Source of the DNA: Streptomyces roseirectus
GTDB lineage: Bacteria; Actinomycetota; Actinomycetes; Streptomycetales; Streptomycetaceae
Length of the DNA: 64,000 nucleotides
Direction of reading: 5' to 3'
Assembly (NCBI RefSeq): GCF_014489635.1
Contig: NZ_CP060828.1
Location: 4,378,001-4,442,000 of the forward strand
Part shown: one piece after another, positions 37,101 through 64,000 of the stretch
How the letters are laid out: the number at the start of each line of letters is the position of its first letter
Numbering within the stretch: position 1 is the first letter of the stretch
Program-made: the position numbers and the translations under genes
The notes under the pieces: generated by a model
Databases searched by the model: none
Told to the model about the DNA's origin: nothing
Seen by the model: the letters and a program-made list of their open reading frames with translations, nothing else

Positions 37101-39030
37101 CCGTCACGACCTCGGTGACCGTGCGCAGGCCCTCCCCGGCCGTGTCGATGCGATCGGCGACGGAACCGGCCTGCGCGACGGTCGTGATGGCGGCCGCGTC
37201 GGCCAACAGGGCTTCCACTTCGGCCTGTTGGGTGTCGAAGGCGTCCGGTTTCGCCAGGTGTTCGACGGCCCGGCGTCCGAACCGGTCCAGGTCGGCGCCG
37301 GCTTGTTCGGCCAGCGCGTCGATGCGGGGCAGGTCCGCGTACCGGACCTCTTTCAGCGTCAGCAAGTGGCCCTGGGCGCGGCGGAGTTCGGTCAGTGCGG
37401 TCACCCAGGCGGAGGCGGTGCGCGGGGTCTCGCCGCGCAGCCGGCGCACGGTCGAGGCGAGCCGTTCGGCGGCTTCGTCGAGGGCGTCGGCGGCCTGCCG
37501 GGTGAGGGTGCGGACGGTGCGGAACTCGGCGAGGACCTGTTCGGCGGTAGCCTGGACGGCGGCCAACAGGGCGCCGAGGCCGCCGAGTTCGGCGTCCGCG
37601 AGCCAGTGGTGGGTGTCGGCCGCGCGTACGCAGGCGGCGACCAGTGCCTCGTGCCCCTCGACCGTCGCGGTGGTCTCCCCCACCGACCGCGCGATCGAGA
37701 GGCAGTCGGCGATCCCCCGCACCAGGTCGGCGTTCCCCACCCGGCCCAGTGCCTCGCCGCCTCCCCCTGTCTCCGCGTGTGTGTCGGAGACGTACGGCGA
37801 CGTCCAGCGCTGCACGGCGTGCACGCGTCCCGGTTCGTCGCCCGCCCGCAGCACCACCAGCTCCCCGTCGTCCCAGCGGGCCCAGCCCTGGCAGGGCAGC
37901 GGTGCGGCGAACTCCTTGCGGATGGTGTTGTACGACAGCAGCAGCGTCGTACCCGTAGTACTGAAGGCCGGACTCGTAGCACTGGAGGTCGCCCCCGTAG
38001 TACTGAAGGCGTACAGGACGTCCTCCCCGTACGGGGAGCGCACCTCCCGTTCGAACTCCAGGCCCTCTGTGTCGAGGTCGAAGGTCTTGTGCGCCCCGGA
38101 GGCGAGGCAGTAGCCGCCGGGGAAGACGATGCCCTGGTCGTCGGGGAGGCGCCGGCACGCCTGTCCGATTCCGTCGAGCCGGACGGCCGTCCGCGTCAGG
38201 GTGTTGGCGACCAGGTAGCGGTGGGTGTCCTCCCGGTAGGGGCGGACCCGGACGAGGATCAGGGGGCCGACGCGGGCGTGGGCGATGTCGGCGTCGGCCA
38301 GGGACTGCAGGGCCTCGGTGACGGGCTCGGTGTGGAGGGTGTCGCCGGTGTCCGTCGTGAGGGTGAGGGCGGCGTCGGACGTCGAGATCCGCAGGCCCTC
38401 GGGGAGCCGGGCGTAGCGGCCCTGGACATGGTCGTCCCGTAGTACCTCGGTCCAGGGGAAGTCGTGGCTCTCAGGTCGTACGTGGTCCCGGTCGCCCCGC
38501 GCGTCGAGGAATTCCGGGTGTCCGGTCGGGGCCTGCGACCAGCGCAGCACCTTGGTGTCGTCCGTCTTCTCGCCGGTCCTGAAGACGGCCAGCAGCCGGT
38601 CGTCGGTGAGGCGGAGCCTGAGGAGGCTCGCCTGGCGGTAGTAGCGGTGGAGGGCGGTGAACTCCCGCAGGAATTCCGGGGAGTCGAGGAGGCCGGGGAG
38701 CGAGTCGCCCGGGACGCGGTTCAACTCGCGGTCGTACAGGGCGAGTACGTCGGCGACCTGCCGCTCGGGGCGGCCGTGGACATCGGCGGCGGTGTCGTAC
38801 CCGAAGAGGAGAAAGTCGCCGATGGCCACGATGTCCCGGGGCAGGCCGGGGTGTTCGGTGCGCAGCGTGTCCGTGCCGGTGAGGGCGAGACCGGTGGCGC
38901 CGAACTCCTGGATGCGGCGGGCGTTCAACTCCTCGGTATGCCGGGTGAGTTCGGCGGCCTGGGCGGTGAGGCGGTCGCGGAGGAGTTCGTAGGTGCCGGG
39001 GTCGGCACCGTCGTGGGCGCGTGAACTCAA
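34144..39030 (-). CDS. Large AAA ATPase, DUF3686 family
   Basis: 1628 residues. The N-terminal ~420 residues match the DUF3686 'DNA repair ATPase' region, the middle (about 430-850) is largely coiled coil, and a C-terminal AAA domain has Walker A PPGYGKTT near 1260, Walker B LLHVDDIQ near 1325 and sensor-1 CMAGNPFTESG near 1372. The family's function is not established. In Streptomyces it neighbours an SPFH protein, as here, suggesting an ATPase acting with a membrane scaffold. Apparent start TTG at 39030 with GGGGGAG very close upstream. Residues near 341-361 consist of three 7-residue repeats from the dispersed GTACTACGGG family, inserted without breaking the frame. Confidence 0.85.
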   Translation of the reverse strand: MSSRAHDGADPGTYELLRDRLTAQAAELTRHTEELNARRIQEFGATGLALTGTDTLRTEHPGLPRDIVAIGDFLLFGYDTAADVHGRPERQVADVLALYDRELNRVPGDSLPGLLDSPEFLREFTALHRYYRQASLLRLRLTDDRLLAVFRTGEKTDDTKVLRWSQAPTGHPEFLDARGDRDHVRPESHDFPWTEVLRDDHVQGRYARLPEGLRISTSDAALTLTTDTGDTLHTEPVTEALQSLADADIAHARVGPLILVRVRPYREDTHRYLVANTLTRTAVRLDGIGQACRRLPDDQGIVFPGGYCLASGAHKTFDLDTEGLEFEREVRSPYGEDVLYAFSTTGATSSATSPAFSTTGTTLLLSYNTIRKEFAAPLPCQGWARWDDGELVVLRAGDEPGRVHAVQRWTSPYVSDTHAETGGGGEALGRVGNADLVRGIADCLSIARSVGETTATVEGHEALVAACVRAADTHHWLADAELGGLGALLAAVQATAEQVLAEFRTVRTLTRQAADALDEAAERLASTVRRLRGETPRTASAWVTALTELRRAQGHLLTLKEVRYADLPRIDALAEQAGADLDRFGRRAVEHLAKPDAFDTQQAEVEALLADAAAITTVAQAGSVADRIDTAGEGLRTVTEVVTGLDIADATVRTSVLERIADVLGGVNRARAVLDTRRRALRDSEGRAEFAAEFALLGQTVTGALAAADTPDACDTQLAGVLVRLENLESRFAEFDDFLTQLDDRRTELADAFAARKQSLLDARARRAEHLAASATRVLETIARRAATLPDADAVSTHFASDPMVAKIRRTAGELRELGDMVRAEELDGRLRAARQEATRALRDRTDLYADDGRTLRLGAHRFAVTTEPLDLTLVPQGDTLAFALTGTDYRAPVTDPAFTDTRPHWDRSLPSESPQVSRAEHLAARLLRDPGPTALATTDDLPALVRRVAQESYDEGYERGIHDHDATAILRALLPLYDRAGTLRHEPAVRAAALVSWTHGVGPGERETLTRRAVSLARVGEIFGTAPGLPEFTRELASALGESDAAATYLFEEITGGPEGFVLSDPARTLLDKFRSTVGSSAYEAYADDLAALGGPAERRQLVTAWLSAYASSTGLDITEGELAEAVSAELCPESTRYPPEVSPVVTIEGLLSAHPRFVDGKLVLRIDEFLARTGQFADHDVPAFRAYQQRRAQLVAAERARLRLAEHRPRPMTAFVRNRLIDEVYLPLIGDSLARQIGTVGETKRTDTGGLLLLISPPGYGKTTLMEYVAHRLGLMLVKISGPALGNGVTSLDPAEAPNATSRQEVEKANFALAAGNNTLLHVDDIQHVSAEFLQKFIPLCDATRRIDGVWDGEPRTFDLRGKRFAVCMAGNPFTESGARFRVPDMLANRADVWNLGDVLTGKESAFAESFLENALTSHPVLSPLAGRDRSDLHLLARLAQHDPTATPDRLRHPYTPAEIEKILSVLRHALRARETVLTVNSAYIASAAQSEKSRTEPPFRLQGSYRTMNRIVQRIRPAMNDRELDAIIADHFTAEAHTLSHDAEANLLKLCELQGTLSGPPLKRWESIKASYIPAGGTDPIERAVTALNILAERMTAVEEAIVRSAMSSRGVRPLRDSVENVPEP
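37948..38010. repeat. Three 21-bp repeats inside the DUF3686 gene
   Basis: Units CGTACCCGTAGTACTGAAGGC, CGGACTCGTAGCACTGGAGGT and CGCCCCCGTAGTACTGAAGGC follow head to tail. Read on the coding strand they give AFSTTGA/TSSATSP-type heptapeptides. Outer units contain CCCGTAGTAC of the dispersed family; a further single copy lies at 38436-38446 in the same gene (Val-Leu-Arg). Confidence 0.85.
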
Positions 39031-39067
39031 CTTCTCCCCCAGGGGTGTTGACGTGGTGGTCGTGCGG

Positions 39068-39116
39068 GCGGGACGCCGCAGCTGCTGCCCCCCGCGCGGC
39101 AGCTGCGGCGTCCCGC
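39068..39116. terminator. Perfect 18-bp hairpin between SPFH and ATPase genes
   Basis: GCGGGACGCCGCAGCTGC (39068-39085) and its exact reverse complement (39099-39116) are separated by 13 bases. It occupies most of the 92-bp gap and could terminate, attenuate or process the SPFH-ATPase transcript. Confidence 0.75.
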
Positions 39117-41360: not shown

Positions 41361-42821
41361 TCACGAGGCCGAGGGGCGCAGGGGGTGTTCGGCGGGGCGT
41401 GCCTCGCTTCTCCCGTGCAGGGCACTGCCCTTGAGCCAGGTGCGCCAAGGCATGTTCCAGTCGCCGACGCCGTTCTCGAACGGCGTCATCTCCTGGCCCC
41501 GGGTGTGCACGGTCCGCGTGATGTCGCCCTCGCCGAGGATCAGGAACAGCCACGCCGCGTCCTCGTCGCTCATCCCGACGCAGCCGTGGCTGACGTCCCT
41601 GCGCCCGAACGACGACGTCGCCCAGGGGGCGGCGTGCAGGAACTCGCCGCTGCGGGTGAGCCGGACGGCGTGGCGCACAGGCAGGTCGTACGTCTCGTCG
41701 GTGCCGGAGGGGATGCCGATGGTCGTGCTGCGCATCCTGAGGACGGCCTGCTTGTCGAGGACGACCTTGACGCCGGCCCGGGTGCGGTAGCCCTCCTTGC
41801 CGGTCGTCACCGGGATGACCCTGAGGGTCATGCCGTCGCGCAGGACGCTCATCCGGTGGGCGGCGGCGTCGATGACGGCCTCCACGTGGGCGCCGGTGGC
41901 GAAGCTCAGGGGTTGTACGGGGGCCACCCTGAGGTGGTCGGTGAGGCGCAGGCCGGCGAGGTCGTCGGCGGTGACCCGGATCTCGGCACGGGCCGGCCAG
42001 TAGGTGCGGGGGCGGTAGTGGAGGGTGGTCGCGTCGAGCCAGTGCCAGGCGCCGGAGGCGGCCTGTGGGGTGGAGGTGACCCTGAGGTGGCTCTCCAGGA
42101 GGGCGCGGCTCTCGGGGGGTACGGGGTGGCTGAGGTGGGCGGTGATGATCTGGCCCACGCCGTAGGTACTACGGGTCTCCCCGACGCCGGCTGCCGCCTG
42201 CCCCTGGGTACTGCGGGCGCCGTCGGGGTCGGCTGGCCCCTGGGGGCTACGGGTACTACGGGTGCTGTCACGGCCGGCTGCCACCCGGGTACTACGGGTC
42301 TCCCCCGCCCCGGGTCCCAGGGTGATCGTGAGGAGGCCGCTGCGGGCGCGGGCGGTGGTGAACTCCGTGCGGTGGGGGGTGCCGCCGGTGCGGGGTTCGG
42401 TCCGGACCTCGGCGACGTAGTGGGTGGCGGCCCGTAGTACGTGGGTACTGCGCCATACGCGCGAGGAGGCGTCGAGCCGTCCGGCCACGCGGTGGCCCGC
42501 GTCGTCCCTGAGGGTGACGTCCGTGAGGCTGCCCTGTCCGTTCAGGGTGACGGTGACCGGGGCGTCGGGGTCGACGGGACCCGTACGTCCCAGGGTGTGC
42601 GCGCCGACCCGCACCTCGGGCCGGGGCGGGGCGGGCTTGCTGTCGCCGTCCGGGGTGTCGGCGTGGGGTCGGAGGGCTGCGGTCAGGGCAACGGCCAGGA
42701 CGGCGGCGGCTGTTGCGGCCGTGCCGTACGTCTTCGGGGCCCTGCCGCCGGGGCTGCTCGGGATGCTCGGCGCCAACCTGTGCTCCAGCGGGGTCGAGGG
42801 GGCGGATGGGTCGGCTCGCAT
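41361..42821 (-). CDS. L,D-transpeptidase with Ig-like domains
   Basis: 486 residues. One N-terminal membrane helix (near 38-55) without lipobox, then two Ig-like domains and a YkuD catalytic domain with SFGRRDVSHGCVGM (active Cys near 414). Makes 3-3 cross-links in peptidoglycan outside the membrane, as LdtMt2-type enzymes do. ATG at 42821 preferred; GTG at 42878 is possible. Residues about 175-225, between the Ig-like domains, contain repeated Arg-Ser-Thr (ETRST, DSTRSTRSPQ) created by several GGTACTACGGG copies read antisense. This is an insertion by comparison with the domain layout of the family. Confidence 0.88.
   Translation of the reverse strand: MRADPSAPSTPLEHRLAPSIPSSPGGRAPKTYGTAATAAAVLAVALTAALRPHADTPDGDSKPAPPRPEVRVGAHTLGRTGPVDPDAPVTVTLNGQGSLTDVTLRDDAGHRVAGRLDASSRVWRSTHVLRAATHYVAEVRTEPRTGGTPHRTEFTTARARSGLLTITLGPGAGETRSTRVAAGRDSTRSTRSPQGPADPDGARSTQGQAAAGVGETRSTYGVGQIITAHLSHPVPPESRALLESHLRVTSTPQAASGAWHWLDATTLHYRPRTYWPARAEIRVTADDLAGLRLTDHLRVAPVQPLSFATGAHVEAVIDAAAHRMSVLRDGMTLRVIPVTTGKEGYRTRAGVKVVLDKQAVLRMRSTTIGIPSGTDETYDLPVRHAVRLTRSGEFLHAAPWATSSFGRRDVSHGCVGMSDEDAAWLFLILGEGDITRTVHTRGQEMTPFENGVGDWNMPWRTWLKGSALHGRSEARPAEHPLRPSAS
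42165..42298. repeat. Cluster of GGTACTACGGG copies in the L,D-transpeptidase gene
   Basis: Copies at 42165-42175, 42207-42217 (one mismatch), 42251-42262 and 42287-42298, plus a reverse copy at 42431-42440. All lie within the inter-domain linker of the protein. Confidence 0.9.
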
Positions 42822-43144: not shown

Positions 43145-44722
43145 ATGATCAATACGTTCATGATCATCCGATTTCCCCAGTGCAACGAGCACACCGGCGC
43201 CCCGGTCTCCCGGGCCGGCACCGGCACGCTGGTCCGGCGGGCGGTTCTGCCGCTGGTCCTGGCGTGCAGCGCCCTCGCCACCTGCTGGCCCACCCATGCC
43301 GCCCCGGCCGCGGCCCCTGCGGACGGGACCGGCACGAGGGGACTGGTACTACGGGTGATCGTCAACAAACGGCCCGGCATCGGCGCCGTCGACCCGGGCA
43401 TCCGTACCGGTCACCCCGTACTCAAGGAGTACCGCCTCACCAACAAGGGCGGCGCCGACCTGCACGACGTCCGCGTCGTCGACCCCGGCATGAAGGGGGC
43501 CCGCATCACCTGCGCGGGCGGCTCGGACCGGGTCCGGCTGCTGCCCGGCCTGACCTCGACGACCTGTACGGCGGAGGGCGGCGCGCGGAAGGGCAGGCGG
43601 ATCGCGCAGGCCACCGCCGCCGGGCGGATCCCCTCGCTGAACGCGCCGGTCCGGGCGACGGCCCGCTCCGGGTACTCCGGGGTCGGCGGCACCCTGACCC
43701 TGAGCCAGCGCGCGACGATCGCCGCGCCCGCGAAACCCGGCGACCCGGCCCGCGTCACTCTCAAGTACGCCCTCGTCAACACGGGCAACCTCCCCGTTCA
43801 CTCCGTCAGCATCACCGACCGCCGGCTGGCCCCCAAGGGAGTGAGGTGCGCGGAGGGTACCTCGGTACTACGCCGGGTAGCTCCGGGGCAGAGCGTGCGG
43901 TGCACGGCGCGGCTGCGTCTCGACCCCGGCGAGCAGGTCAGCGAAGGGTTCGCCGAGGGCAGCGACCGCACCAGCACCCTGGACCGCAAGGGCCGGCTGA
44001 TCGGCGCGCCCATGCTGCGGGCGCACAGCATGCTGCGGTTCGGGGTGCCGTACCAGGGCGCCGTGGTGGACCCGGTCCCGATGCCCCTGGGGGTCGAAGC
44101 GGGGCCCGAGCCGGACGCCGCCGACGACGAGCCCGCGCCCGGTACACCCGTGCCGGGCCAGACGACGACGGACGACCCCGGTGTCGCGGCCGGCGTCGAC
44201 CCCGGCGAGATCCCCTCCACGGGGTATGACGACGTACCCGATGTGGTCCCCGGGTTCCTCCCCGGCGAACTGCCCGCGGGGTACCTCCCGGGTATCCCCT
44301 CCACCCATCCCTCGGGCACCCAGGTCCCCGGCGAACTGCCCGCCTTCTCGCTGCTCCCGCCCGGACACCACTTCTCGGACCCGGCGCTCCCCGGCACCCA
44401 CACCGACGCCCCCGGGTCCCGTAGTACCCCTGGTACGTCCGGCGCCCACGACGGACCCCACCAGACCGGCGCCGCCCACCCCTCGGCCTCCCACGACCCG
44501 GCCCGTAGTACTCAGGTACCCGACCCGTACGACCACGGAGCCGCGACCGCGACCCTCGAACCCGGCACCGCCCTCCCCCGGGGCGCCTCGGAACTGGGCT
44601 GGTTCGGCATCCCCCGCAACACCTTCCTCATCGGCGCGGTCCTGCTCGGGGCGTCGGCGGTGGCGGGGGCGGCGCTGTTCCTACGGCGGCGCGGGAGCGG
44701 GCCGGACGATCTGGCGTTCTGA
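43145..44722 (+). CDS. Cell-surface protein with C-terminal membrane anchor
   Basis: Up to 525 residues. Signal peptide near 25-55 (LVRRAVLPLVLACSALATC), then two DUF11/Ig-like modules (about 65-300: YRLTNKGGADLHDVRVVDPG and YALVNTGNLPVHSVSITD). A Pro/Gly-rich stalk covers about 310-490, and a C-terminal hydrophobic helix ends in RRRGSGPDDLAF. The end resembles a sortase-type anchor but no LPxTG or LAxTG is visible. Likely exposed on the cell surface; binding partner unknown. The start is uncertain (43145, 43160 or upstream 43082). Several dispersed-repeat copies lie within it (43345, 43864, 44418, 44502). Confidence 0.75.
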   Translation: MINTFMIIRFPQCNEHTGAPVSRAGTGTLVRRAVLPLVLACSALATCWPTHAAPAAAPADGTGTRGLVLRVIVNKRPGIGAVDPGIRTGHPVLKEYRLTNKGGADLHDVRVVDPGMKGARITCAGGSDRVRLLPGLTSTTCTAEGGARKGRRIAQATAAGRIPSLNAPVRATARSGYSGVGGTLTLSQRATIAAPAKPGDPARVTLKYALVNTGNLPVHSVSITDRRLAPKGVRCAEGTSVLRRVAPGQSVRCTARLRLDPGEQVSEGFAEGSDRTSTLDRKGRLIGAPMLRAHSMLRFGVPYQGAVVDPVPMPLGVEAGPEPDAADDEPAPGTPVPGQTTTDDPGVAAGVDPGEIPSTGYDDVPDVVPGFLPGELPAGYLPGIPSTHPSGTQVPGELPAFSLLPPGHHFSDPALPGTHTDAPGSRSTPGTSGAHDGPHQTGAAHPSASHDPARSTQVPDPYDHGAATATLEPGTALPRGASELGWFGIPRNTFLIGAVLLGASAVAGAALFLRRRGSGPDDLAF

Positions 44723-45487: not shown

Positions 45488-46527
45488 AGCAGTACCGCCC
45501 CGGTGAGCACGGAGACCACCACGGCGAGCACGAACGTCGCCGGCGCGAATCGCAGCGCGAAACTCCGGCCGAACGTTCCGGTCTGCATGGCGAACAATTT
45601 GAGGTCGATCATCGGCCCGACGACCAGGAAAGCCAGCCGGGCGGTCAGGGAGAACTGGGTCAGGGAAGCGGCGACGAACGCGTCCGCCTCCGAGCAGATG
45701 GAGAGGACCACCGCGAGAACGGCCAGTGCCAGCACGGCGATCACGGGATTGTCGGCGGCGGTCCGCAGCCAGCTCTCGGGCGCGACCGCTTTCAGCGTGG
45801 CCGCGGCCATCGCGCCGACCACCAGGAATCCCCCGGCGTGCATGACGTCGTGCCGCACGGAATCCCAGAAAGCCGCGCCTTTCGTCCGTCCTTCATGAAT
45901 GGCGCGGGCCGGCGGTTTCAGCAGATCGGTCCGGCCGAGCCGCAACCACAGCCACCCCATCGCGCAGGCGACGACAAGGCTGGCGGCGAAACGCGCCACG
46001 ACCATTTCGGGATTGCGCGGAAAAGCGACCGCGGTGGCCGTCAGCACGATCGGATTGATCGCGGGCGCCGACAGCAGAAAGGCGAGCGCGGCGGCCTGGG
46101 GCACGCCCCTGCGGACGAGGGCTCCCGCCACCGGCACGGACGCGCACTCGCACCCCGGCAGGGCGACCCCGGCCACTCCCGCGACCGGTACCGCGAGCGC
46201 GGGCCGCTTCGGCAGGGCGCGCGCGAAGAACGACGGGGGCACGTACACGGCGATCGCCGCCGAGAGCAGTACCCCTAGTACCAGGAAGGGCAGGGCCTGG
46301 ACGACGACGGCGACGAACACGGTCGTCCAGCTCTGCATGACGGGGGCGCCCAGCGCGCGCCTGAGGGGCGACTGGAACAGCACCATCAGCAGCATGCCGA
46401 GGACGAGGACCAGGGGGGAGTTGAGCCGGGCAGGCCGCTGCGGCGCCGGGCGGCCCGCGCCCTCGGGACGCCCGTCGTCCTCGGGGTGCCCGTCCTCCGT
46501 GTCCTGGCCGGTGACGACGGTCGTCAC
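45484..46527 (-). CDS. Permease of the ArsP/YraQ family
   Basis: 347 residues with about eight or nine membrane helices. The hallmark PGCECASVPVAGALVRRG (compare PLCSCGVLPVA in ArsP) and LSAPAINPIVLTATAV are present. Family members move organoarsenicals or are of unknown substrate; paired with TIGR03943 proteins a metal-related role is more likely. First gene of a two-gene operon, divergent from the channel gene. A CCCCTAGTACC copy of the dispersed repeat lies at 46272-46282. Confidence 0.85.
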   Translation of the reverse strand: MTTVVTGQDTEDGHPEDDGRPEGAGRPAPQRPARLNSPLVLVLGMLLMVLFQSPLRRALGAPVMQSWTTVFVAVVVQALPFLVLGVLLSAAIAVYVPPSFFARALPKRPALAVPVAGVAGVALPGCECASVPVAGALVRRGVPQAAALAFLLSAPAINPIVLTATAVAFPRNPEMVVARFAASLVVACAMGWLWLRLGRTDLLKPPARAIHEGRTKGAAFWDSVRHDVMHAGGFLVVGAMAAATLKAVAPESWLRTAADNPVIAVLALAVLAVVLSICSEADAFVAASLTQFSLTARLAFLVVGPMIDLKLFAMQTGTFGRSFALRFAPATFVLAVVVSVLTGAVLL

Positions 46528-46725: not shown

Positions 46726-48540
46726 ATGGTGGTGTGCGGTGACGACGGTCTCGCGCACCGTCTCGCCGCCGAACTCCGGGGCGTCTACGGCGAACAGGTC
46801 ACCCTCGTCGTCCCGCCCGCACAGCGCACGGTACGCCCTCCCGTGGTGGGCCGGGCCCGCGCGGTCTCGGCGGCGCTGCTCGACCGGGTGGTCAGCGCGG
46901 CCGTCAACAGGGCCTCGGGCAACGGCGGTTCGGCGACCGCCGAGCCGGCTCCCGTGGGCGACGAACGGACCCTGGAGGCCGCCGAGCCCACCGAGGCGGT
47001 CCTGTCGGAGGCGGGCGTGACCAGGGCGGCGGCGCTCGCCCTGGTCTATGACGACGACGAGACCAACATCCGCGCCGCCCTCACCGCGCGCCGCCTCAAC
47101 CCCCGGCTGCGGCTCGTACTGCGCCTCTACAACCGGAGGTTGGGCCAGCACATCGAGGAACTGCTCGACCAGGCCGCCGTGTTGGCGTCCGGCGACGAAG
47201 ACCTCACCGCCGGCACGACGACGGTCCTGTCCGACGCCGACACCGCCGCGCCCGCCCTCGCGGCGACGGCGATCGCCGGGACCACCAAGGTCGTCCAGAC
47301 GGACGGCCTGCTGCTGCGGGCGGTCGAGCACCACGGCGAGGGGGCCGCGCCCGGCCTCGCCACGCTCGCGCTGCTCTCCCCGGAGACCGAGGGCAGCGGC
47401 GAGCAGGGGCCCCAACTCCTGCCGGACGCCGAGGCGGTGGGGGCGGCGCCGGGGCGCGGGACCGTCGTCCTGGAACAGGTGTCGTACGCCTCGGAGGGCG
47501 GCGTCTCGACGGGGCGCGGGACGGGGCTCATCGCGCCGATGGCGTCGCTCTTCTCGCGCCGGCTGCGGTGGTCGCTGGCGGGGCTGATCGGCTGCGTCCT
47601 CGCGCTGGCGGTGGCACTGTGGCTGACGACGGGCATCCATCCGCTGGGCGCGCTGTACCTGACGCTGCTGGACCTGTTCGCCATCAACGACCCTGCCGTG
47701 GGCGACCCGTTGGCCCGGCAGATCCTCCAACTCCTGTCCGGGCTCATGGGGTTGCTGCTGCTTCCGGTGCTGCTGGCCGCCGCGCTCGAAGCGTTGGGGA
47801 CGTTCCGCAGCGCGGGGGCGCTGCGCAAGCCGCCGCGGGGGATGAGCGGGCACGTCGTCCTGCTGGGGCTCGGCAAGATCGGCACCCGGGTGCTGATCCG
47901 GCTGCGGGAGCTGGACATCCCCGTGGTGTGCGTGGAGGCCGGGCCCGAGGCGCGGGGGCTGGCGGTGGCCCGGCGGCTCAGGGTTCCCGTAGTACTCGGG
48001 GACGTCACCCAGGAGGGGGTCCTGGAGGCGGCGAAGATCCAGCGCGCGGGCGCCCTGCTGGCCGTCACCAGCTCCGACACCACCAACCTTGAGGCCGTCC
48101 TCTACGCCCGTTCCCTGCGCCAGGACCTGAACGCGGTGCTGCGCCTGTACGACGACGACTTCGCGACGGCCGTCTACCGCACCCTGCGCGCCGCGCACCC
48201 CTACGCCAAGACCCGTAGCCGCAGCGTCTCCCATCTGGCGGCGCCCTCCTTCGCCGGGGCGATGATGGGCCGCCAGATCCTGGGGGCGATCTCCGTGGAG
48301 CGCCGGGTGCTGCTGTTCGCGGCGCTGGAGGCGGGCGGGCACTCCCAGCTGGCGGGGCACACCATGGGCGAGGCGTTCCGTCCCGGGCACTGGCGGGTCC
48401 TCGCCCTCGACACCGGGACCGGCCTCGCCTGGGACCTGCCGGCCGACCGGGTGCTGCGGCCGACGGACCGGGTCATCCTGGCGGCGACCCGGCAGGGCAT
48501 GGCGGATCTGCTGCGCCGGCAGGGACGGCGGGAGGGGTAG
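46726..48540 (+). CDS. CASTOR/POLLUX-type channel with RCK/TrkA-N domains
   Basis: 604 residues from the ATG at 46726 (GAGG 6 bases upstream). An N-terminal RCK-like domain (MVVCGDDGLAHRLAAELRG…), two hydrophobic segments near 285-315 and 335-360, then a second Rossmann domain GHVVLLGLGKIGTRVLIRL with conserved acidic residue in VCVEAGPEARG. Bacterial relatives of the plant ion channels CASTOR/POLLUX are thought to gate K+ or other cations by ligand binding. The pore selectivity sequence is not obvious. Contains CCCGTAGTAC at 47986-47995, encoding Val-Val with rare GTA codons. Confidence 0.82.
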   Translation: MVVCGDDGLAHRLAAELRGVYGEQVTLVVPPAQRTVRPPVVGRARAVSAALLDRVVSAAVNRASGNGGSATAEPAPVGDERTLEAAEPTEAVLSEAGVTRAAALALVYDDDETNIRAALTARRLNPRLRLVLRLYNRRLGQHIEELLDQAAVLASGDEDLTAGTTTVLSDADTAAPALAATAIAGTTKVVQTDGLLLRAVEHHGEGAAPGLATLALLSPETEGSGEQGPQLLPDAEAVGAAPGRGTVVLEQVSYASEGGVSTGRGTGLIAPMASLFSRRLRWSLAGLIGCVLALAVALWLTTGIHPLGALYLTLLDLFAINDPAVGDPLARQILQLLSGLMGLLLLPVLLAAALEALGTFRSAGALRKPPRGMSGHVVLLGLGKIGTRVLIRLRELDIPVVCVEAGPEARGLAVARRLRVPVVLGDVTQEGVLEAAKIQRAGALLAVTSSDTTNLEAVLYARSLRQDLNAVLRLYDDDFATAVYRTLRAAHPYAKTRSRSVSHLAAPSFAGAMMGRQILGAISVERRVLLFAALEAGGHSQLAGHTMGEAFRPGHWRVLALDTGTGLAWDLPADRVLRPTDRVILAATRQGMADLLRRQGRREG

Positions 48541-50381: not shown

Positions 50382-50629
50382 ATGTCCATCAAACCTGATG
50401 GGGAGGGCCGAGCGGACCTTGCCGGACGACGAGACGCGCCGCATCCGTCAGAAAGTGCGGGGTCGGTGAAGGACCGGGGGTGATGCCTCGCGCGTACATC
50501 GGAGGTACTAGGGGTGCTGCTCCCTCCTCCGTCCGGCTTCTCCTGCCTCCGGCCGCTTCCTCCCGCCTCTGGCCGTCTCCTCGCACCCCGCCGCCCGCCG
50601 TCCGGGCCCCGGCGCGTACGGTTGAAGGC

Positions 50630-51597: not shown

Positions 51598-52794
51598 TCA
51601 CGACGCCGCCAGCACGCCCGTCCGGTAGATCGTCCCCGCGCACGCGTCCGGCACGGTCGCGGTGACCGAGGGTGAGCCCGCGTCGGCGGTGTAGGTCACC
51701 GTCACGCTGCCCGGGTCGGTCGTGGTCGCGTCCTCGCGGATCAGCTGTGGGCTGGTACCCGTAGTACCCGTACTGGTCCCCGTCGTCTGCTCGGAGGGGG
51801 ACGGGGAGGGTGTCGGGGAGGAACCGGTGTCTCCGCCCGTAGTGCTTCCGCCGGTGCCGCCCCCGTCGCTGGGACAGTCCTCCGACTTCACCCAGGCGAA
51901 CTTCACGTCGTACGCGGAGCCGGGCGCCAGCGCCAGCTGGGTCACGTAGAGGGAGGGGTCGGGGAGCTGGGCCGCGGCGTCCCCGGCGACATGCTCGGTG
52001 ACGCTGATCTTCATCGCGTCGGCGGCGCCCTGGGCGCCCGGGTTGAGGGCGACGGCCCCGCCGACGGTACAGCTCGTGGCGGAGACGTTGACGACGCGGA
52101 AGGTGCCGTACACCACGCCCGTGGAGTCCGGGCCGTCGACCGACGAGGTGGCCGAGCCGAGCTGGTCGGCGGTGCAGGCGGGGGCGACCGGGCTGAGCGA
52201 CTGTGAGGGGCCCGCGCCGCTGGAGGCTCCCGGCGTGGGGGTCTCCTTGCCGCCGCCGGTGCCCTTGGAGGCGCCCGAGCTCGTACCCGTAGTACCTCCG
52301 GTGGACTCGCCCACCTTGCCCTCGGAGCCCCCGTCGGGGTTCTTGCCCTGGCCGGTGGAGCCGCCGGTCTGCGACGCCTGGCCCGCGACCGCGGGGTTCG
52401 CGTCGGTGTCACCGGTGCTGGAGACGGTCATCAGGGCGGGGACGGCCACGCCGGCGAACAGGACCGCGGCCGCCACCCCCACGATCGCCTGCCGCTTGCG
52501 CGCCTTGCGGGCGGGGACGGCCCGGCGGAGGTGGTCGAGGGCGCCGTCGCGCGGTGCCATCTCGTGCACCGCCCGGTGCAGCATGCGGCGCAGCTCCAGC
52601 TCGTCCGAGTCGAGCCCGTCCGGGCCCTGGTCGTCGAGGTGGTGGTTCACAGTCCTGTTCCCAGCGTGTGGTTGCTTCGGTTCGTTCCCGTACGACGGTC
52701 CCGAACCGCCCTTGTCGTACGACAGGTCGCTCTCCCCCAGGGGATCTCCCCGTCCCTCCAGAGGGTTACTACTCCTGTCCGGTTCCCCGCTCAC
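51598..52794 (-). CDS. Membrane partner of the ECF sigma factor (possible anti-sigma)
   Basis: 398 residues. Cytoplasmic N-terminus of about 105 residues (with LRRMLHRAVHEMAPRDGALDHL), one membrane helix (near 105-125), and a long Gly/Ser/Thr-rich extracytoplasmic part with Cys-containing beta-rich segments (ACTADQLGS, ATSCTVGG, SEDCPSD). The order sigma factor then membrane protein, with ATGA overlap, suggests regulation of the sigma factor; the zinc anti-sigma motif HxxxCxxC is absent. Two CCCGTAGTACC copies (51758, 52286) lie in its low-complexity segments. Confidence 0.7.
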   Translation of the reverse strand: MSGEPDRSSNPLEGRGDPLGESDLSYDKGGSGPSYGNEPKQPHAGNRTVNHHLDDQGPDGLDSDELELRRMLHRAVHEMAPRDGALDHLRRAVPARKARKRQAIVGVAAAVLFAGVAVPALMTVSSTGDTDANPAVAGQASQTGGSTGQGKNPDGGSEGKVGESTGGTTGTSSGASKGTGGGKETPTPGASSGAGPSQSLSPVAPACTADQLGSATSSVDGPDSTGVVYGTFRVVNVSATSCTVGGAVALNPGAQGAADAMKISVTEHVAGDAAAQLPDPSLYVTQLALAPGSAYDVKFAWVKSEDCPSDGGGTGGSTTGGDTGSSPTPSPSPSEQTTGTSTGTTGTSPQLIREDATTTDPGSVTVTYTADAGSPSVTATVPDACAGTIYRTGVLAAS

Positions 52795-53459
52795 GCCGAT
52801 GCCTCCATGGCCGTACGCAGCGCCGCGATCCCCCGCGAGCCGTACGCCTTCACGGAGCCCAGGGATATCCCGAGCGCTTCGGCGACCTGCGCCTCGGTCA
52901 TGTCGGCGAAGTAGCGCAGGACCAGCACCTCGCGCTGGCGGCGCTGGAGGCCCTTCATCGCCTTGATCAGGGAGTCGCGCTCCAGCTGGTCGTAGGCGCC
53001 CTCCTCCGCGCTGGCCATGTCCGGCATCGGCTTGGAGAGGAGCTTCAGGCCGAGGATGCGGCGGCGCAGGGCGGAGCGGGAGAGGTTGACGACCGTCTGC
53101 CTCAGGTAGGCCAGGGTCTTCTCGGGGTCGCGGACGCGTTTGCGCGCCGAGTGGACGCGGATGAACGCCTCCTGGACGACGTCCTCGCAGGACGCGGTGT
53201 CGTCGAGCAGGAGCGCGGCGAGACCCAGGAGGGAGCGGTAGTGCGCCCGGTAGGTCTCGGTGAGGTGGTCGACTGTCGTGCCGGCCGCCACGGTGTCGTC
53301 GGCACGCGGGCTGGGGATGCGGGCGGGCCGCGCTGCGGGCATGGGCGCGATCACCGGCAGGCCGCCGGGCGCCCCGCCGGCGCGGGGGCGGGCGGTCCTG
53401 CGGGGCGGACGCAGGGCTGTGCCGCGCGCCGCCGCTGTGAAGTCGAGTACCTCAGCCAC
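52791..53459 (-). CDS. ECF RNA polymerase sigma factor
   Basis: 222 residues. Region 2 near 66-130 (YRSLLGLAALLLDDTASCED, VVQEAFIRVHSARKRV) and region 4 near 165-215 (REVLVLRYFADMTEAQVAEAL, GSVKAYGSRGI) fit the SigE-like actinobacterial group. The first 55 residues are Pro/Arg/Ala-rich and may not be translated: the GTG at 53459 has no binding site, and an in-frame ATG lies near residue 40. Upstream are Tyr-Tyr-Gly repeats of the dispersed family. Probably autoregulated with its membrane partner. Confidence 0.85.
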   Translation of the reverse strand: MAEVLDFTAAARGTALRPPRRTARPRAGGAPGGLPVIAPMPAARPARIPSPRADDTVAAGTTVDHLTETYRAHYRSLLGLAALLLDDTASCEDVVQEAFIRVHSARKRVRDPEKTLAYLRQTVVNLSRSALRRRILGLKLLSKPMPDMASAEEGAYDQLERDSLIKAMKGLQRRQREVLVLRYFADMTEAQVAEALGISLGSVKAYGSRGIAALRTAMEASA

Positions 53460-53519
53460 GCCAGTTGGACACCCGTGCCCCGGAGGAGGTTGTACGTGTC
53501 GGCGGTCACTTTTGCCCGC

Positions 53520-53695
53520 CGGCCCAGCACGCAGGCCCCGTACGACCCGTCATACCCGTACGACCCGTAGTACTCGGGCGCCCCCACAGACACCCCGTAG
53601 TACCCGTAGCCCTCGGGCCGCGCGCCCGGCTCCCCGTAATACCCGTAGCCCTCAAGCCGCGCACCCGGCGCCCCGTAGCACCCGTAGTACCCGCG
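53520..53695. repeat. Dense cluster of CCCGTAGTAC repeats upstream of sigma gene
   Basis: At least eight full or one-mismatch copies (53564, 53594, 53601, 53633, 53641, 53672, 53680 and variants CCCGTACGACCCGTCATACC at 53538) separated by GC-rich spacers. Two longer units containing GCCCTCGGGCCGCGCGCCCGG-like spacers are repeated at about 38-bp intervals. A minus-strand frame gives Gly-Tyr-Tyr-Gly repeats but has no start signals. Confidence 0.9.
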
Positions 53696-53699
53696 CGCC

Positions 53700-54120
53700 T
53701 CCGACGCCACCGGCACCGGCCTCGTCGCCACCCCCGTCGCCGGAATCGTTTCTCCACCGGCGCTCACGCCGGATCTGCCGAGCCGCGCGGCCGGCCGTCT
53801 GCCGGCCCGCGCCCCCTCATCTACCCTCATACGTCCCGCTCTTCCCCTATGTTCCCTATGTCCCATAGGAAGTGTCCCCATACGAAACGGGCGTCCCCAC
53901 GCCCGTCCACAGGCTTCCGACAGCTACAGCCCGTGGTCACACGCCTGCGCACCCGGAAAGGGTGACCGCAAAGACGCTCCCCGCGCACCGCACGGTTGCG
54001 GGGTACGGGGAGAAAAATCTTCGAACGCCGACCCGCCCGGGGACAAGGCGGCACGACCGTCTTCCGGCTCACACTTCTCACACAAATCCTACAAAGCCGT
54101 CCGCCCTGGCCAGCGGGTTT
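53700..54120. other. Intergenic region between sigma factor and asd
   Basis: About 420 bp. No gene accepted. A locally AT-richer segment with GAGAAAAATCTTCGAACG lies near 54018-54035 and may be part of a promoter reading toward the sigma gene. Nothing else is identifiable. Confidence 0.35.
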
Positions 54121-55311
54121 TCACTCGGGGCGGGATCCGGCGGAGGAACCGGCGGAGGACGTCCACTCGGCGGCGACCAGTTCCGCGATCTGCGCGGTGT
54201 TGAGGGCGGCGCCCTTGCGGAGGTTGTCGCCGCAGACGAAGAGTTCGAGCGCGGTCGGGTCGTCGAGCGCGCGCCGGACCCGGCCGACCCAGGTGGGGTC
54301 GGTGCCCACCACGTCCGCCGGGGTGGGGAACTCGCCCGCCGCCGGGTTGTCGAACAGCACGACCCCGGGCGCGGTGGCCAGGATCTCGCGCGCCCCGGCG
54401 ACGGTGACCTCGTCCTGGAACCGGGCGTGCACGGTCAGGGAGTGCGTGGTGACGACGGGGACGCGGACGCAGGTGACGGCGACCGGCAGCTTCGGCAGCC
54501 CGAGGATCTTGCGGGACTCGTCCCGCACCTTGCGCTCCTCCGAGGACCAGCCGTCCTCGGTGAGCGAACCGGCCCACGGGACGACATTCAGCGCGATCGG
54601 CGCCGGGAACGGCCCGGTGTCGTCCCCCACGACCCGCCGTACGTCTCCGGGGGTAGTCCCCAGGGCTCCCCCTAGACCCCCTACCCCTCCGGTACCCCCG
54701 ACGCCTCCCGTACCGGCGGAGCCCAAGGACCCAGGACCCGTACCCGTACCCGTAGTACCTCCGGACGACGCCTCCACCACCTGCGCCAACTGCCGCCGCA
54801 GCGTCTCGACGCCCTCCCGGCCCGCCCCGCTCACCGCCTGGTACGACGAGACCACCAGCTCACGCAGACCGAACTCGGCGTGCAGCGCGCCGAGGGCGAC
54901 GATCATCGACAGCGTCGTGCAGTTCGGGTTGGAGACGATGCCGTGCGGCCGGACCCGGACGGCGTGCGGGTTCACCTCGGGTACGACGAGGGGTACGCCG
55001 GGGTCCATCCGGAAGGCCCCGGAGTTGTCGACGACGACCGCGCCCTTGGCGACCGCGACCGGCGCCCAGCGCGCGGCCACCTCGTCGGGGACGTCGAACA
55101 TCGCGACGTCGACCCCGTCGAACGCCTCCTCCGAAAGAGCTACGACCTCGACCTCCTCGCCGCGCACGGCCAGCTTGCGGCCGGCCGAGCGCGGGGAGGC
55201 GACGAGGCGGATCTCGCCCCAGACGTCGGCACGCTGGGAGAGGATCGTGAGCATGACCGAGCCGACGGCCCCGGTCGCTCCCACGACCGCGAGCGTCGGT
55301 CGTGCGGTCAT
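54121..55311 (-). CDS. asd: Aspartate-semialdehyde dehydrogenase
   Basis: 396 residues. Reduces aspartyl phosphate to aspartate semialdehyde for Lys, Thr, Met and diaminopimelate synthesis. NADP-binding [11 protein letters not shown] (11-21), catalytic Cys131 in SNPNCTTLS, and substrate-binding [14 protein letters not shown] are present. Co-transcribed with aspartokinase (ATGA overlap). Odd: residues 183-220 are a Gly/Thr-rich stretch ([14 protein letters not shown]…) absent from other bacterial Asd proteins, which are about 340-350 long. It contains CCCGTAGTACC at 54749-54759. The insertion lies between substrate-binding helix and the conserved [16 protein letters not shown]. Confidence 0.95.
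54652..54765. repeat. In-frame low-complexity insertion in asd
   Basis: 114 bp encoding 38 residues, built on the dispersed repeat at one end (CCCGTACCCGTAGTACC) and on GGTACC/GGTAGTCCC-like variants elsewhere. Length is a multiple of three and the flanking protein is conserved. Confidence 0.75.
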
Positions 55312-56789: not shown

Positions 56790-57506
56790 GTGCGCGTACT
56801 TCTGGTGGAAGACGACGAGCCCGTCGCGGAATCCCTGCGGCGCGGGCTGAAGCGGTACGGCTTCGAGGTGGACTGGGTGACGACCGGCGCCGCCGCGCTC
56901 GCTCACGCCGACCCCCACGACGTGGTCCTCCTCGACCTCGGCCTGCCCGACACCGACGGGCTCGACGTCTGCAAGGAGCTGCGGGCCCGCAGCGACGTCC
57001 CGATCATCGTGATCAGCGCCCGCAGCGACGAGACGGACCGGGTGGTCGGGCTCGAACTCGGCGCCGACGACTACGTCTCCAAGCCGTTCGGGGTGCGTGA
57101 GGTCATCGCGCGGATAAGGGCCGTCATGCGGCGCGTCCAGCCCCGGACGCCCGCGGAGGCAGGGCCCGACCGGTACGGCTCCGGCCTCACCGTCGACCGC
57201 AAGGCCGCGCGCGTCCGGCTGAACGGGGAGGAGATCTCCCTGGCTCCCAAGGAGTACGACCTGCTCGCCTTCCTCACCGAGGAGCCGGGGGCCCTGATGA
57301 CCCGCGAGCAGATCATGGAAGCCGTCTGGGACGCGAACTGGTTCGGGCCGACGAAGACGCTGGACGTCCACGTCGCCGCGTTGCGCCGGAAGCTGGCCGG
57401 GGCGATCACGATCGAGGCGGTGCGGGGGGTGGGGTTCCGGCTGGAGATCGTGGGGGGTGCGGGTACTACGGGTACTACGGGTGCCCCAGGAGATACGTCC
57501 GTATGA
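56790..57506 (+). CDS. OmpR-family response regulator
   Basis: 238 residues. Receiver domain with phospho-acceptor Asp49 (VVLLDLGLPD), acidic pocket EDDE and Lys in SKPFG; winged-helix DNA-binding domain with ALRRKLAGAITIEAVRGVGFRLE. Cytoplasmic. GTG at 56790 lies 6 bases after TAGGGT, a -10-like box, so the transcript may be leaderless. The conserved protein ends at GFRLEIV; the tail GGAGTTGTTGAPGDTSV comes from two tandem GGGTACTACGG copies at 57461-57481. Overlaps the kinase gene by ATGA. Confidence 0.93.
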   Translation: MRVLLVEDDEPVAESLRRGLKRYGFEVDWVTTGAAALAHADPHDVVLLDLGLPDTDGLDVCKELRARSDVPIIVISARSDETDRVVGLELGADDYVSKPFGVREVIARIRAVMRRVQPRTPAEAGPDRYGSGLTVDRKAARVRLNGEEISLAPKEYDLLAFLTEEPGALMTREQIMEAVWDANWFGPTKTLDVHVAALRRKLAGAITIEAVRGVGFRLEIVGGAGTTGTTGAPGDTSV

Positions 57507-60153: not shown

Positions 60154-60174
60154 AGTACTACGGGTACTACGGGG
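60154..60174. repeat. Tandem GTACTACGGG copies, intergenic
   Basis: Two 10-bp-spaced copies (AGTACTACGGG then GGTACTACGGG) in the gap between the MazG-like gene and the convergent DUF5063 gene, showing that the element is not confined to coding DNA. Confidence 0.9.
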
Positions 60175-61592: not shown

Positions 61593-61629
61593 GGGTCTAC
61601 GGGTAGGTATTACGGGGTCTACGGGTAGG
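61593..61629. repeat. Repeat variant between ybaB and recR
   Basis: GGGTCTACGGGTAGG occurs twice (61593-61607 and 61615-61629) around TATTACGG, a diverged relative of the GTACTACGGG family, in the 167-bp gap between YbaB and RecR genes. Confidence 0.75.
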
Positions 61630-61985: not shown

Positions 61986-62246
61986 CGGCTCCTGTGTCGT
62001 ACGACGTCTCGGGCGGGGGTTTCCCGCTCGGCACGAGCCTACGTGGTCTGTGCGGGCGCTGCCCCGGCACTCTTTCGAGTGAGTCTCTTCCACGGCCTAT
62101 ACCTGATCAAGGCCCACTTCCGGGCGTAAAAGCGGCGAAACCTTCCTCTTCGCCACCCATTGGGAGGTAGGAAGTGTCAGACGCACCGACGGACACGTCC
62201 GGGTGCCACACGGGGTGCCGTCCGGCGGTATACGCGGGGCGGCGCT

Positions 62247-62452
62247 GCGGGGTGGCTCTGCGGGGTGGCTCTCGGGTAGTGCCCCTCGCGGGGTGGCTCT
62301 GGGGAGGTGGCTCCGGGGAGGTGACTCTCGGGGTGCGGCTCTCGGGGTGGCTCTGAAGCGGTAGCCCTCGGGGGGTCGCTCCCGAGGCGTAGCCCCTGAA
62401 GGCCGGCCCTGGAGTGTGGCTCCCGGGGTGTACCCCCTGAGGGTTCACCCGG
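62247..62452. repeat. G-rich 12-15-bp degenerate tandem array
   Basis: About fourteen head-to-tail units modelled on GCGGGGTGGCTCT, the first two identical, later ones such as GGGGAGGTGGCTCC and CGGGGTGCGGCTCT more diverged. It ends about 45 bp before the start of the SLATT gene. Lies within a 513-bp intergenic region (61986-62498) that has no gene otherwise. Confidence 0.8.
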
Positions 62453-62498
62453 TGTGTCAGGTCAGGCAGTGGGAACGGGGTTCAGGAGGGAGTGCCGG

Positions 62499-63254
62499 GT
62501 GGGTCAGCAGCCGGAGATGCAGCCCGAGGGTCCGCCTCAGGACGGACGGGACGAGGGGGCGGCCGGGCTGCGGCCGGGCGATCTCACCGGGCGGATGTTC
62601 CCGCACGGCGACTGGGGCGAGCCCGCGGTGCGGCTCGACGAGCTGTACCGGTGGGTGGAGCAGGGGGCGCTGGAGACGGCGGCCTGGTACCTCGCCGACC
62701 GGGGGTGGAAGCGGCGCGGGGCGCGGATCCTGCGGGGCGCCGCGGCGGGCGGTGCCGTGATCGGCGCCGCGCTGCCGCTGCTCGACCTCGCCGGCCTGTT
62801 GCGGGGCGCCTCCCCGTGGGGGTACCTCGCGCTGCTGATCGCCGTGTCCTGCGTCGCCGTCGACCGGTCCTTCGGGCTGACCTCGGGGTGGATGCGGGAC
62901 GTCGCCACCGCGCAGGCCGTCCAGCGCCGGCTCCAGATCCTCCAGTTCGACTGGGCCTCGGAGAGCGTCCGCGAGGTGCTGGGCCCCGCCGAGGGGACGG
63001 CCGGTGAGGCGGCCGAACGGTGCCTGGGCGTGCTGCGCCGCTTCTCGGAGGACGTCACGGATCTGGTGCGTACGGAGACGGCGGACTGGATGATCGAGTT
63101 CCGGACGTCGTCCACGTCCCTCGCGCTCCAGACCACCGCACCCACAGTCCCGCGCCAGGAGCCTCCCGGCCCGCACCAGGGGCGTTTCTCCCCTCCGCCG
63201 GTGAACGGGACGCGTCCGAACATGCCGAGGCAGAGGCCGCCGGAGCCGCGGTGA
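62499..63254 (+). CDS. SLATT-domain membrane protein
   Basis: 251 residues. Two membrane helices near 80-102 and 106-128 in the SLATT arrangement, preceded by ELYRWVEQGALETAAWYL and followed by a helical cytoplasmic part and a Pro-rich tail (PPGPHQGRFSPPP). SLATT proteins are predicted pore-forming effectors in nucleotide-second-messenger defence, but no SMODS nucleotidyltransferase or TIR gene is adjacent, and the gene is part of the core order after ybaB. GTG at 62499 has AGGAGGG 8 bases upstream. Confidence 0.8.
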   Translation: MGQQPEMQPEGPPQDGRDEGAAGLRPGDLTGRMFPHGDWGEPAVRLDELYRWVEQGALETAAWYLADRGWKRRGARILRGAAAGGAVIGAALPLLDLAGLLRGASPWGYLALLIAVSCVAVDRSFGLTSGWMRDVATAQAVQRRLQILQFDWASESVREVLGPAEGTAGEAAERCLGVLRRFSEDVTDLVRTETADWMIEFRTSSTSLALQTTAPTVPRQEPPGPHQGRFSPPPVNGTRPNMPRQRPPEPR

Positions 63255-63321
63255 GGGGCGGGGCGGTGAGGGGCGGGCCGGGGCGGGGCGTCATACGGCA
63301 CCTGCACCCCGTACGACCACC

Positions 63322-64000
63322 TCACCCCCGTACGGCGACCTCGCCCTCGTCCTCCTCCTCGTCCCGTCCACCCCGTACCCCTCCTGCCGTACGTCCCGTA
63401 GTACCCGTACGTCCCGTAGCCCCCGTACGCCCCGTAGTCCCCGTGATACCCGTAGTACCCCCTGGGCCCCCTTCCGGCAGGCGTAGTACGGCCTCCGCGC
63501 CGCCCTCCGGGTGGTTGCGGAAGGTCAGGCGGGCGCCGAGGAGGCGGGTCTGCCCCGCGGCGATGCTGAGGCCGAGGCCCGTCCCGGCGGACGCGCACCC
63601 GGTGCGGAAACGTTGCGGCCCCGAGGTGGTGAGGACGGCGAGGGCGTCGAGCGGGAAGCCGGGCCCGTGGTCGCGGACGCGGACGACGGGGCCGTCGCCG
63701 CAGCGGTCGACGTCGACGGTGACCGGGGCCGCGCCGTGGCGCAGCGCGTTGGTGACGAGGTTGGTGAGGACCCGTTCCACCCGGCGCGGGTCGGTCTCCA
63801 CGAGCGTGTCCGCGACGATCCGCACCGCGACCCCTTCGAGCCCGGCGACCGCACGCCGCGCCATCGCGCTGACCTGCCGGAACTCGGTCTCGACGACCGC
63901 GCAGTCGGCGTCGAGGCGGGCGATCTCCAGGACGTCCTCGACGAGCCCGTGCAGCTTGCGCACCCCGCCCGCGACGAGGTCGCCGGCGGGTCCCGGCGGC
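63322..64000 (-). CDS. Sensor histidine kinase, C-terminal part (5' end outside window)
   Basis: Still open at the right edge; the phospho-His box lies outside. Visible are the end of the dimerisation helix (KLHGLVEDVLEIARLDA), N box (NLVTNALRHG), G1 (DHGPGFPL) and G2 (GTGLGLSIAA). The kinase fold ends at AEAVLRLPEG. The final 45 residues are a Thr/Gly repeat (GTTGITGTTGRTGATGRTG) from dispersed-repeat copies, then an acidic EEEDEGE tail. Response regulator probably farther right. Confidence 0.85.
   Translation of the reverse strand, partial: PPGPAGDLVAGGVRKLHGLVEDVLEIARLDADCAVVETEFRQVSAMARRAVAGLEGVAVRIVADTLVETDPRRVERVLTNLVTNALRHGAAPVTVDVDRCGDGPVVRVRDHGPGFPLDALAVLTTSGPQRFRTGCASAGTGLGLSIAAGQTRLLGARLTFRNHPEGGAEAVLRLPEGGPGGTTGITGTTGRTGATGRTGTTGRTAGGVRGGRDEEEDEGEVAVRG
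63391..63461. repeat. CCCGTAGTACC cluster in 3' end of kinase gene
   Basis: Full copies at 63395-63407 and 63449-63461 with variants CCCGTACG, CCCGTAGC and CCCGTAGT between them, spaced 9 bp apart. Encodes the Thr-Gly-rich tail. Confidence 0.9.

Follow-up and report, generated by a model that had tools for sequence, protein, structure and literature searches.

What makes some genomes fill up with a single short word, as with the highly iterated palindrome HIP1 or the uptake sequences of bacteria, is an old open question. The uptake sequence of Neisseriaceae is a non-palindromic word of 10-12 bp, the short tandemly repeated repetitive (STRR) heptamers of heterocystous cyanobacteria are short tandem units in gaps, and repetitive extragenic palindromic (REP) sequences and miniature inverted-repeat transposable elements (MITEs) are palindromic units of 20-40 bp or longer that are moved by transposases. 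HIP1 of cyanobacteria is tied, in the part of the source considered here, to methyltransferases and to a proposed repair bias (PMC4390886). The stretch of DNA described here, bases 4378001-4442000 of the single contig of 9,947,447 bp that represents the genome of Streptomyces roseirectus (hereafter the window, i.e. all 64,000 nucleotides of the stretch), carries a dispersed 11-bp word, GGTACTACGGG, to which a preliminary description made from the sequence alone had drawn attention. We read this word as a lineage-specific, hyper-iterated motif of the recognition type, with DNA-level pressure from a sequence-specific factor as its driver, and put the probability of this reading at about 0.5.

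Abundance of the motif and codon-level tests

On both strands of the window, 33 matches to GGTACTACGGG with at most one mismatch were found, including 17 exact copies; the chance level, from 100 dinucleotide shuffles, was a mean of 0.69 and a maximum of 3. All but one of these matches (32) lie at 37952-63459, and the remaining one, at 5300 in an acs-like gene, is the sole match in the left 37 kb, as the preliminary description had said; its at least 25 copies in 25 kb are real, and its coordinates are accurate within 1 bp. The mixed layout that it reported was likewise recovered: copies stand in either orientation, singly or in 9-bp tandem (57462/57471, 60154/60163, 53672/53681), in genes and in gaps, and in several reading frames. 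The consensus is R-GTA-Y-TAC-GGG, plus the GGTACTAGGGG variant; RGTAYTACGGG is not self-reverse-complementary, its inner GTANTAC alone being so. Genome-wide, 278 exact copies of GGTACTACGGG were counted (141 forward and 137 reverse), and the reversed control was found once.

The abundance is confined to few genomes. The search covered 392 genomes of the genus, a subset of a larger group, of which 332 (S. roseirectus included) hold at least one copy; the 391 other genomes carry 0-14 exact 11-mers each, and by eye these counts generally do not exceed those of the reversed control, though in genomes G181 (14 vs 8) and G183 (13 vs 6), for example, they do. The 13-mer GTACTACGGGTAC occurs 105 times in S. 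roseirectus and at most four times in each of 149 other actinobacterial genomes. Loci of relatives were taken as the best 80 from titled GTDB records, with the sigma-factor gene next to the array at 53.6 kb as query, and exact copies were counted in the genomes of 30 of these 80 relatives: Streptomyces niveiscabiei has 70, S. prunicolor 21, S. hokutonensis 15, S. lincolnensis 9, and the other 26 at most 6 each. Of the named relatives found, S. niveiscabiei is the closest (DNA identity 88% across 3.6 kb), and its 70 copies make an assembly error unlikely. A tree built with FastTree on up to six gene segments, with S. niveiscabiei present in 36% of the columns, places S. roseirectus and S. niveiscabiei together, S. 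rishiriensis next, and S. prunicolor and S. hokutonensis on a separate branch. With 6 copies in S. rishiriensis, 70 in S. niveiscabiei and 278 in S. roseirectus, the outbreak looks recent and lineage-limited, so that gains can be watched in close relatives.

Some other searches concerned the origin and kind of the word. An origin from plasmids or phages found no support: the tandem (GTACTACGG) query had no match in 72,556 plasmid records, nor had the motif one in phage records, in both cases with the low-complexity filter on; 14 viral contigs hold one motif dimer each. Among seven sequences scanned for known RNA families, just one tRNA turned up. The idea that other species have dispersed words of their own was dropped after five relatives' loci had been inspected, all five being led mainly by local repeats (minisatellites and protein repeats, the latter presumably WD40-like to judge by their period).

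For the tests at codon level we used 704 kb of S. roseirectus DNA (contiguous stretches of 464 kb and 240 kb, the window included) with 587 called genes; the labels 'coding' and 'intergenic' are approximate because the genes were called by a simple GC-frame script, and later gene calls disagree with the first set at 42165-42298 and 50504. In the 587 genes the exact 9-mer GTACTACGG occurs 69 times, counting both strands, against a mean of 9.3 and a largest value of 15 in 60 within-gene synonymous-codon shuffles, and the motif and its overlapping words rank first in this test among the 9-mers that occur at least 12 times. The frequency in the 704 kb is thus not what codon usage predicts, this being the null against which the preliminary description had proposed to count the word. 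The same shuffle with 1301 genes from 79 relatives' loci (genes with N dropped) showed no excess, with 0 exact 9-mers against 1.1 expected; the conservation of copies across distant Streptomyces, which had been named as evidence that would speak against a spreading element, did not appear. Altogether, 155 exact copies of GTACTACGG lie in the 704 kb, 72 inside called genes and 83 outside, with genes covering 0.80 and 0.84 of the two stretches; the excess over codon and composition nulls is strong in genes and gaps alike.

Copies in conserved genes are written with synonymous codons. At 47986, in a TrkA-N gene, S. roseirectus reads GTTCCCGTAGTACTCGG, S. niveiscabiei GTACCCGTAGTACTCGG, and the commonest form in relatives is GTGCCGGTGGTGCTCGG (comparison of the 12 commonest forms among 63 aligned rows), with the peptide VPVVLG kept; synonymous rewriting is seen likewise at 46272 and at genome position 4684968. 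An orthologue check with genome G376 (which has 5 exact 9-mers in the 400 kb used, a portion that missed most of the orthologues) could align nine of 40 coding copies, two of them poorly (27% and 31% identity). Selection at the protein level for Tyr-Tyr-Gly, Thr-Thr-Gly or Val-Leu-Arg repeats, for which one may cite the many coding copies in Thr/Gly or Pro/Val linkers, is scarcely credible as the cause: more than half of the exact 9-mers are non-genic in DNA that is about 0.8 genic, the copies use both strands and several frames, and the strong excess beyond the synonymous shuffle rules it out. The same shuffle excess and use of several frames, together with the synonymous rare codons in conserved peptides, back the earlier statement that protein selection does not suffice to explain the word. 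These data point to a pressure on the DNA itself that is strong enough to shift which codons conserved genes use, in an actinomycete of high GC content.

As a separate observation, a group of related 9-mers that includes GGGAGTTGG and CGAGGAGTT is more frequent than under the synonymous shuffle, both in S. roseirectus and in relatives (CGAGGAGTT, 74 vs 20.7 in relatives), which is probably a genus-wide codon-pair effect.

Variant set and origin of the copies

The tolerated variants are few. Only three of the 33 single-base neighbours of the 11-mer are abundant in the 704 kb, namely G>A at position 1 (31 copies), C>T at position 5 (33) and C>G at position 8 (10), while the other 30 occur 0-6 times each and the intact 11-mer 114 times. 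Weaker preferences extend outward (C at -4, T at +11, A or C at +12, and C at +16), in largely the same columns in 54 coding and 47 non-coding single copies, though weaker in the coding ones; a profile with its threshold set at 5% false discovery against the relatives' loci finds 342 sites in the 704 kb. Recognition by a factor would leave a variant set as narrow as this. A recent burst made up of three sub-families could look the same; the absence of spatial clustering of variant type argues against local copying of sub-families. Of the readings offered in the preliminary description, that of a protein-binding site is compatible with the narrow variants and the position-specific flanks. A terminator or hairpin role was rejected, since the mean fold energy at motif-bearing gaps equals that of control gaps, though single sites lie in strong hairpins.

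Under the reading that we prefer, a sequence-specific factor of the lineage (a DNA-binding, modification, repair or DNA-transfer protein) would favour motif-bearing DNA; near-matches would drift into the motif where the DNA is permissive, in gaps, linkers and synonymous positions, and tandem slippage might then multiply the motif locally. The copies in the window are as follows.

5300..5310, + strand: single GGTACTACGGG in an acs-like gene (peptide SGTTGKP); codons GGT ACT ACG GGT at the same place in S. prunicolor
37952..38004, - strand: two AGTACTACGGG (37952-37962 and 37994-38004) within a DUF3686 gene (34144-39030)
38436..38446, - strand: GGTACTACGGG within the same DUF3686 gene, translated EVLRD
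42165..42298, + strand: cluster at 42165, 42207 (1 mismatch), 42252 and 42288; non-genic in later gene calls, within a long open reading frame (ORF) in the first calls
43345..43355, + strand: GGTACTACGGG translated GLVLRV; counterpart in S. niveiscabiei GGTCCTCCGGG, gapless
44418..44512, - strand: copies at 44418-44428 and 44502-44512, antisense to a gene ending at 44722; the second also in S. niveiscabiei, the first gapped there
46272..46282, - strand: GGTACTAGGGG variant in an ArsP_1 permease gene, with synonymous rare codons (LVLGV); gapless against the 8 relatives shown
47986..47996, - strand: AGTACTACGGG in the TrkA-N gene through synonymous changes, VPVVLG retained; also in S. niveiscabiei
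50504..50514, + strand: GGTACTAGGGG variant; non-genic in later gene calls, within an ORF in the first calls
51758..51768, - strand: GGTACTACGGG in a Thr/Gly linker; counterpart in S. niveiscabiei GGTACCACGGG
52286..52296, - strand: GGTACTACGGG in a Thr/Gly linker, common to S. niveiscabiei
53564..53691, - strand: array of copies and near-copies (53564, 53594, 53633, 53672, 53681) upstream of the sigma-factor gene; mostly missing in S. niveiscabiei
54749..54759, - strand: GGTACTACGGG at an 18-bp in-frame insertion in a gene for aspartate-semialdehyde dehydrogenase, as compared with the 7 named species shown in addition to S. niveiscabiei, whose contig ends nearby
57462..57481, + strand: tandem dimer of 9-bp period at the C-terminal end of a response-regulator gene; S. 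niveiscabiei has the dimer too, with an insertion adjoining
60154..60173, + strand: intergenic tandem dimer within a predicted hairpin
61606..61616, + strand: intergenic GGTATTACGGG variant
63395..63459, - strand: array at 63395, 63431 (1 mismatch) and 63449 in a histidine-kinase-like gene that starts outside the window

Some further features lie at or near these sites. A 176-aa ORF with a GYYG-like array (53351-53881, - strand) overlaps the sigma-factor gene in a different frame and could represent an upstream ORF or an extension through a frameshift; the gene at 62454-63254 (+ strand) encodes a strong match to SLATT_2 (E 7e-107), a domain of membrane effectors associated with SMODS/SLOG; and (GGGTACTAC)n at 57462-57481, 60154-60173 and other arrays matches the G3-N6 spacing rule of potential G-quadruplexes.

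The copies come from base substitution at synonymous positions without indel and from local 9-bp duplication or insertion. The second of these routes is the core of the main competing explanation, in which a 9-bp microsatellite-like repeat, (GTACTACGG)n, expands by slippage and decays to single copies, with neither recognition nor function. It has support among neighbours within 60 bp, where 59 pairs are direct (22 at exactly 9 bp and 34 at multiples of 9) and two are inverted; further support comes from degenerate arrays, from a halo of partial motifs in the motif-dense domains described below, from flank similarity, which is raised only for copies 60-500 bp apart and there exceeds all 200 shuffles, and from 17 S. 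roseirectus copies with an indel nearby in the alignment with S. niveiscabiei (S. niveiscabiei copies with a nearby indel being left uncounted). However, 101 of the 179 copies of RGTAYTACGGG in the 704 kb have no other copy within 40 bp, the copies at 47986, 46272 and 4684968 arose by synonymous substitution in gapless alignments, and decay should give many one-off variants, of which only the three types are common. We therefore regard slippage alone as possible but rather unlikely to account for the motif; the label 'microsatellite-like' given earlier holds for the local tandem growth, but not for the single copies made by base substitution.

The alignments of S. roseirectus with S. niveiscabiei contain 15 motif positions present in both species, 13 gapless positions found in S. 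roseirectus only and two found in S. niveiscabiei only, numbers that are subject to ascertainment bias both ways: 20 S. niveiscabiei contigs were picked for having copies, which favours its copies, and its indel-adjoining copies were uncounted, which disfavours them. The surplus of copies peculiar to S. roseirectus, with the genome counts of 278 and 70, suggests ongoing gain in its lineage, or loss in the other.

One of these own-only copies, at genome position 4673607, differs from S. niveiscabiei in five of nine motif bases and in one of 40 flank bases. A burst of changes placed wholly in the motif is what a mobile or templated element would leave, by short conversion or template switching from existing copies, and a 29-bp identity between two sites 104 kb apart might be read in the same way. 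On the other side, the five-base difference may be several steps in either lineage because there is no outgroup to polarise it, no similarity of flanks or variants was found between copies 0.5-400 kb apart, and neither plasmid nor phage records gave a match with the filter mentioned above, transposases and target duplications not having been searched systematically; we consider templated copying improbable. The retro process proposed in the preliminary description is not supported either, since several copies lie in gapless alignments and the flanks bear no sign of copying beyond 500 bp, which speaks equally against transposition.

Distribution along the chromosome

The copies are mostly mid-chromosome and patchy. 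When 100 of the 105 positions of the 13-mer were merged within 1 kb to 70 sites at 3.45-6.65 Mb, the variance-to-mean ratio in 100-kb bins was 2.90, against 1.01 for random placement (reached by 0 of 2000 random sets), and the largest gap was 463 kb (3 of 2000 random sets). Probes of 20 kb gave 0 copies at 4.10, 5.10 and 5.20 Mb and 15 at 5.99 Mb. With domain boundaries drawn post hoc, density in dense and sparse domains is 1.35 vs 0.14 per kb in non-genic DNA and 0.204 vs 0.009 per kb in genes. After masking of the detected sites, the codons GTA (p 1e-7), GGT (p 7e-11), CTA and ACT (p 0.012 each) are raised in the dense domains, and CGT, AGT, GTT, ACA, CCA, TCA and GCA codons show no rise there.

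Neither S. roseirectus nor S. niveiscabiei has a copy in one sparse stretch that was compared (14 kb aligned); the aligned dense stretches hold 30 copies in 57.6 kb for S. roseirectus and 16 in 73.9 kb for S. niveiscabiei, whose overlapping loci were left unmerged, and S. hokutonensis has 0 copies in the 61.5 kb aligned to them. Several simple accounts of the patches were dropped. Introgression is not supported, as identity to S. niveiscabiei is 88% in dense and sparse stretches alike; nor is a higher share of intergenic DNA (rank correlation -0.13, p 0.26, 71 bins). There is no clear strand bias of the KOPS or Chi kind on either side of dnaA (23+/26- and 31+/20-), and a symmetry about the origin, for which the apparent centre is 5.04 Mb and dnaA lies at 4.926 Mb, was dropped without formal test.

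Sites of a chromosome-organising or nucleoid protein that mark domains of the central chromosome would be expected to show such a mid-chromosomal, patchy placement, the domain contrast in coding and other DNA (with the post hoc boundaries) and a probed sparse stretch that is empty in both species. Such sites are, however, usually conserved genus-wide, and tandem arrays are unusual among them; with 0-14 copies in the 391 other genomes, tandem growth in S. roseirectus and no strand polarity about dnaA, we judge this explanation unlikely. A bolder variant of the recognition idea is a chromosomal watermark, in which a dedicated and possibly horizontally transferred protein (for DNA exchange or chromosome handling) would read the word and drive this target of its own through selected domains by biased substitution; the weaker outbreak in S. 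prunicolor and S. hokutonensis would then reflect independent acquisition of a reader. We offer this version tentatively and think it doubtful.

Several points weigh against the recognition-type motif that we favour. The factor, its chemistry and any benefit are all things that we infer. The domain boundaries for the codon comparison were drawn after the density had been seen, and the contrast between dense and sparse domains extends to words that have nothing to do with the motif (less CGCGCG and more ACCGAC or CCTGAG), so that general composition may account for some of the codon difference. Strand polarity is absent, and the preference among gaps is mild (1.25 per kb in convergent, 0.95 in tandem and 0.63 in divergent gaps). 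The conservation of the shared copies is not clearly above the background, in which 49% of 11-mers are unchanged between S. roseirectus and S. niveiscabiei, and most copies may be young, in which case the scarcity of decayed ones is no proof of maintenance.

Two other repeats of the same genome were noted. A second enriched word in the non-coding DNA of the 704 kb, GGAGACGCGGAG with its overlaps (12-mer, 26 vs 0.08 expected), is commoner outside the domains rich in the 11-mer. A longer dispersed repeat with the core GGGGCGCGGGGAACTGCGCGA occurs at genome position 4753081-4753160 and at 12 more sites in 1.25 Mb of S. roseirectus, in S. niveiscabiei with more than 30 listed matches (42-83 bp, 78-100% identity), and in 16 of the 79 relatives' loci; its sites tend to fall outside bins with many copies of the 11-mer (rho -0.27, p 0.034; 2x2 test p 0.19; post hoc).

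Comparison with described systems

The preliminary description knew of no account of such a family, and none was among the matches listed in the literature on Streptomyces and actinobacterial repeats, with most subscription literature outside the search. The described systems resemble the motif each in part.

The transposase-moved REP sequences and MITEs share with it the many dispersed short copies; the motif, however, is 11 bp long and no palindrome, and some of its copies are gapless substitutions, so that discrete insertion does not describe the copies at 47986, 46272 and 43345. The STRR heptamers and microsatellites share the head-to-tail units of fixed period, which a part of the copies has with a 9-bp period; the Streptomyces motif differs from STRR by its 9-bp unit and by many single genic copies, some of them made by substitution. 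In the recognition repeats of TraB and the clt-like sites of Streptomyces, short repeats are read by an FtsK-like protein and clt-like sequences are also chromosomal, according to the part of the source considered (PMC4170104). The same part of that source has the TraB repeats as 8-bp units at a plasmid locus (PMC4170104). The tandem query of the motif gave no plasmid match with the low-complexity filter on.

The likeness to the uptake sequences of Neisseriaceae lies in lineage dialects and in permissive places of the core genome (in the part of PMC3630211 considered), and the motif is likewise a non-palindromic word of 9-12 bp in permissive core-genome positions. The uptake sequences have thousands of copies and frequent inverted pairs that act as terminators, whereas the motif has 278 exact copies and two inverted against 59 direct pairs. 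We know of no natural competence in S. roseirectus.

HIP1 and the alternate HIPs of cyanobacteria are alike in being short over-represented oligonucleotides whose frequency varies between related lineages and whose one-off variants are patterned (as given in the part of PMC4390886 considered). The HIPs are palindromes with cognate methyltransferases at about one per kb, whereas the Streptomyces motif is non-palindromic, forms 9-bp tandem arrays and is patchy, with 278 exact copies in 9.95 Mb and 342 profile sites in the 704 kb, and thus does not reach about one per kb genome-wide. Because for HIP1 and for the uptake sequences alike some defining features were looked for and not found, we file the motif under neither of the two, but it is these two that it works like.

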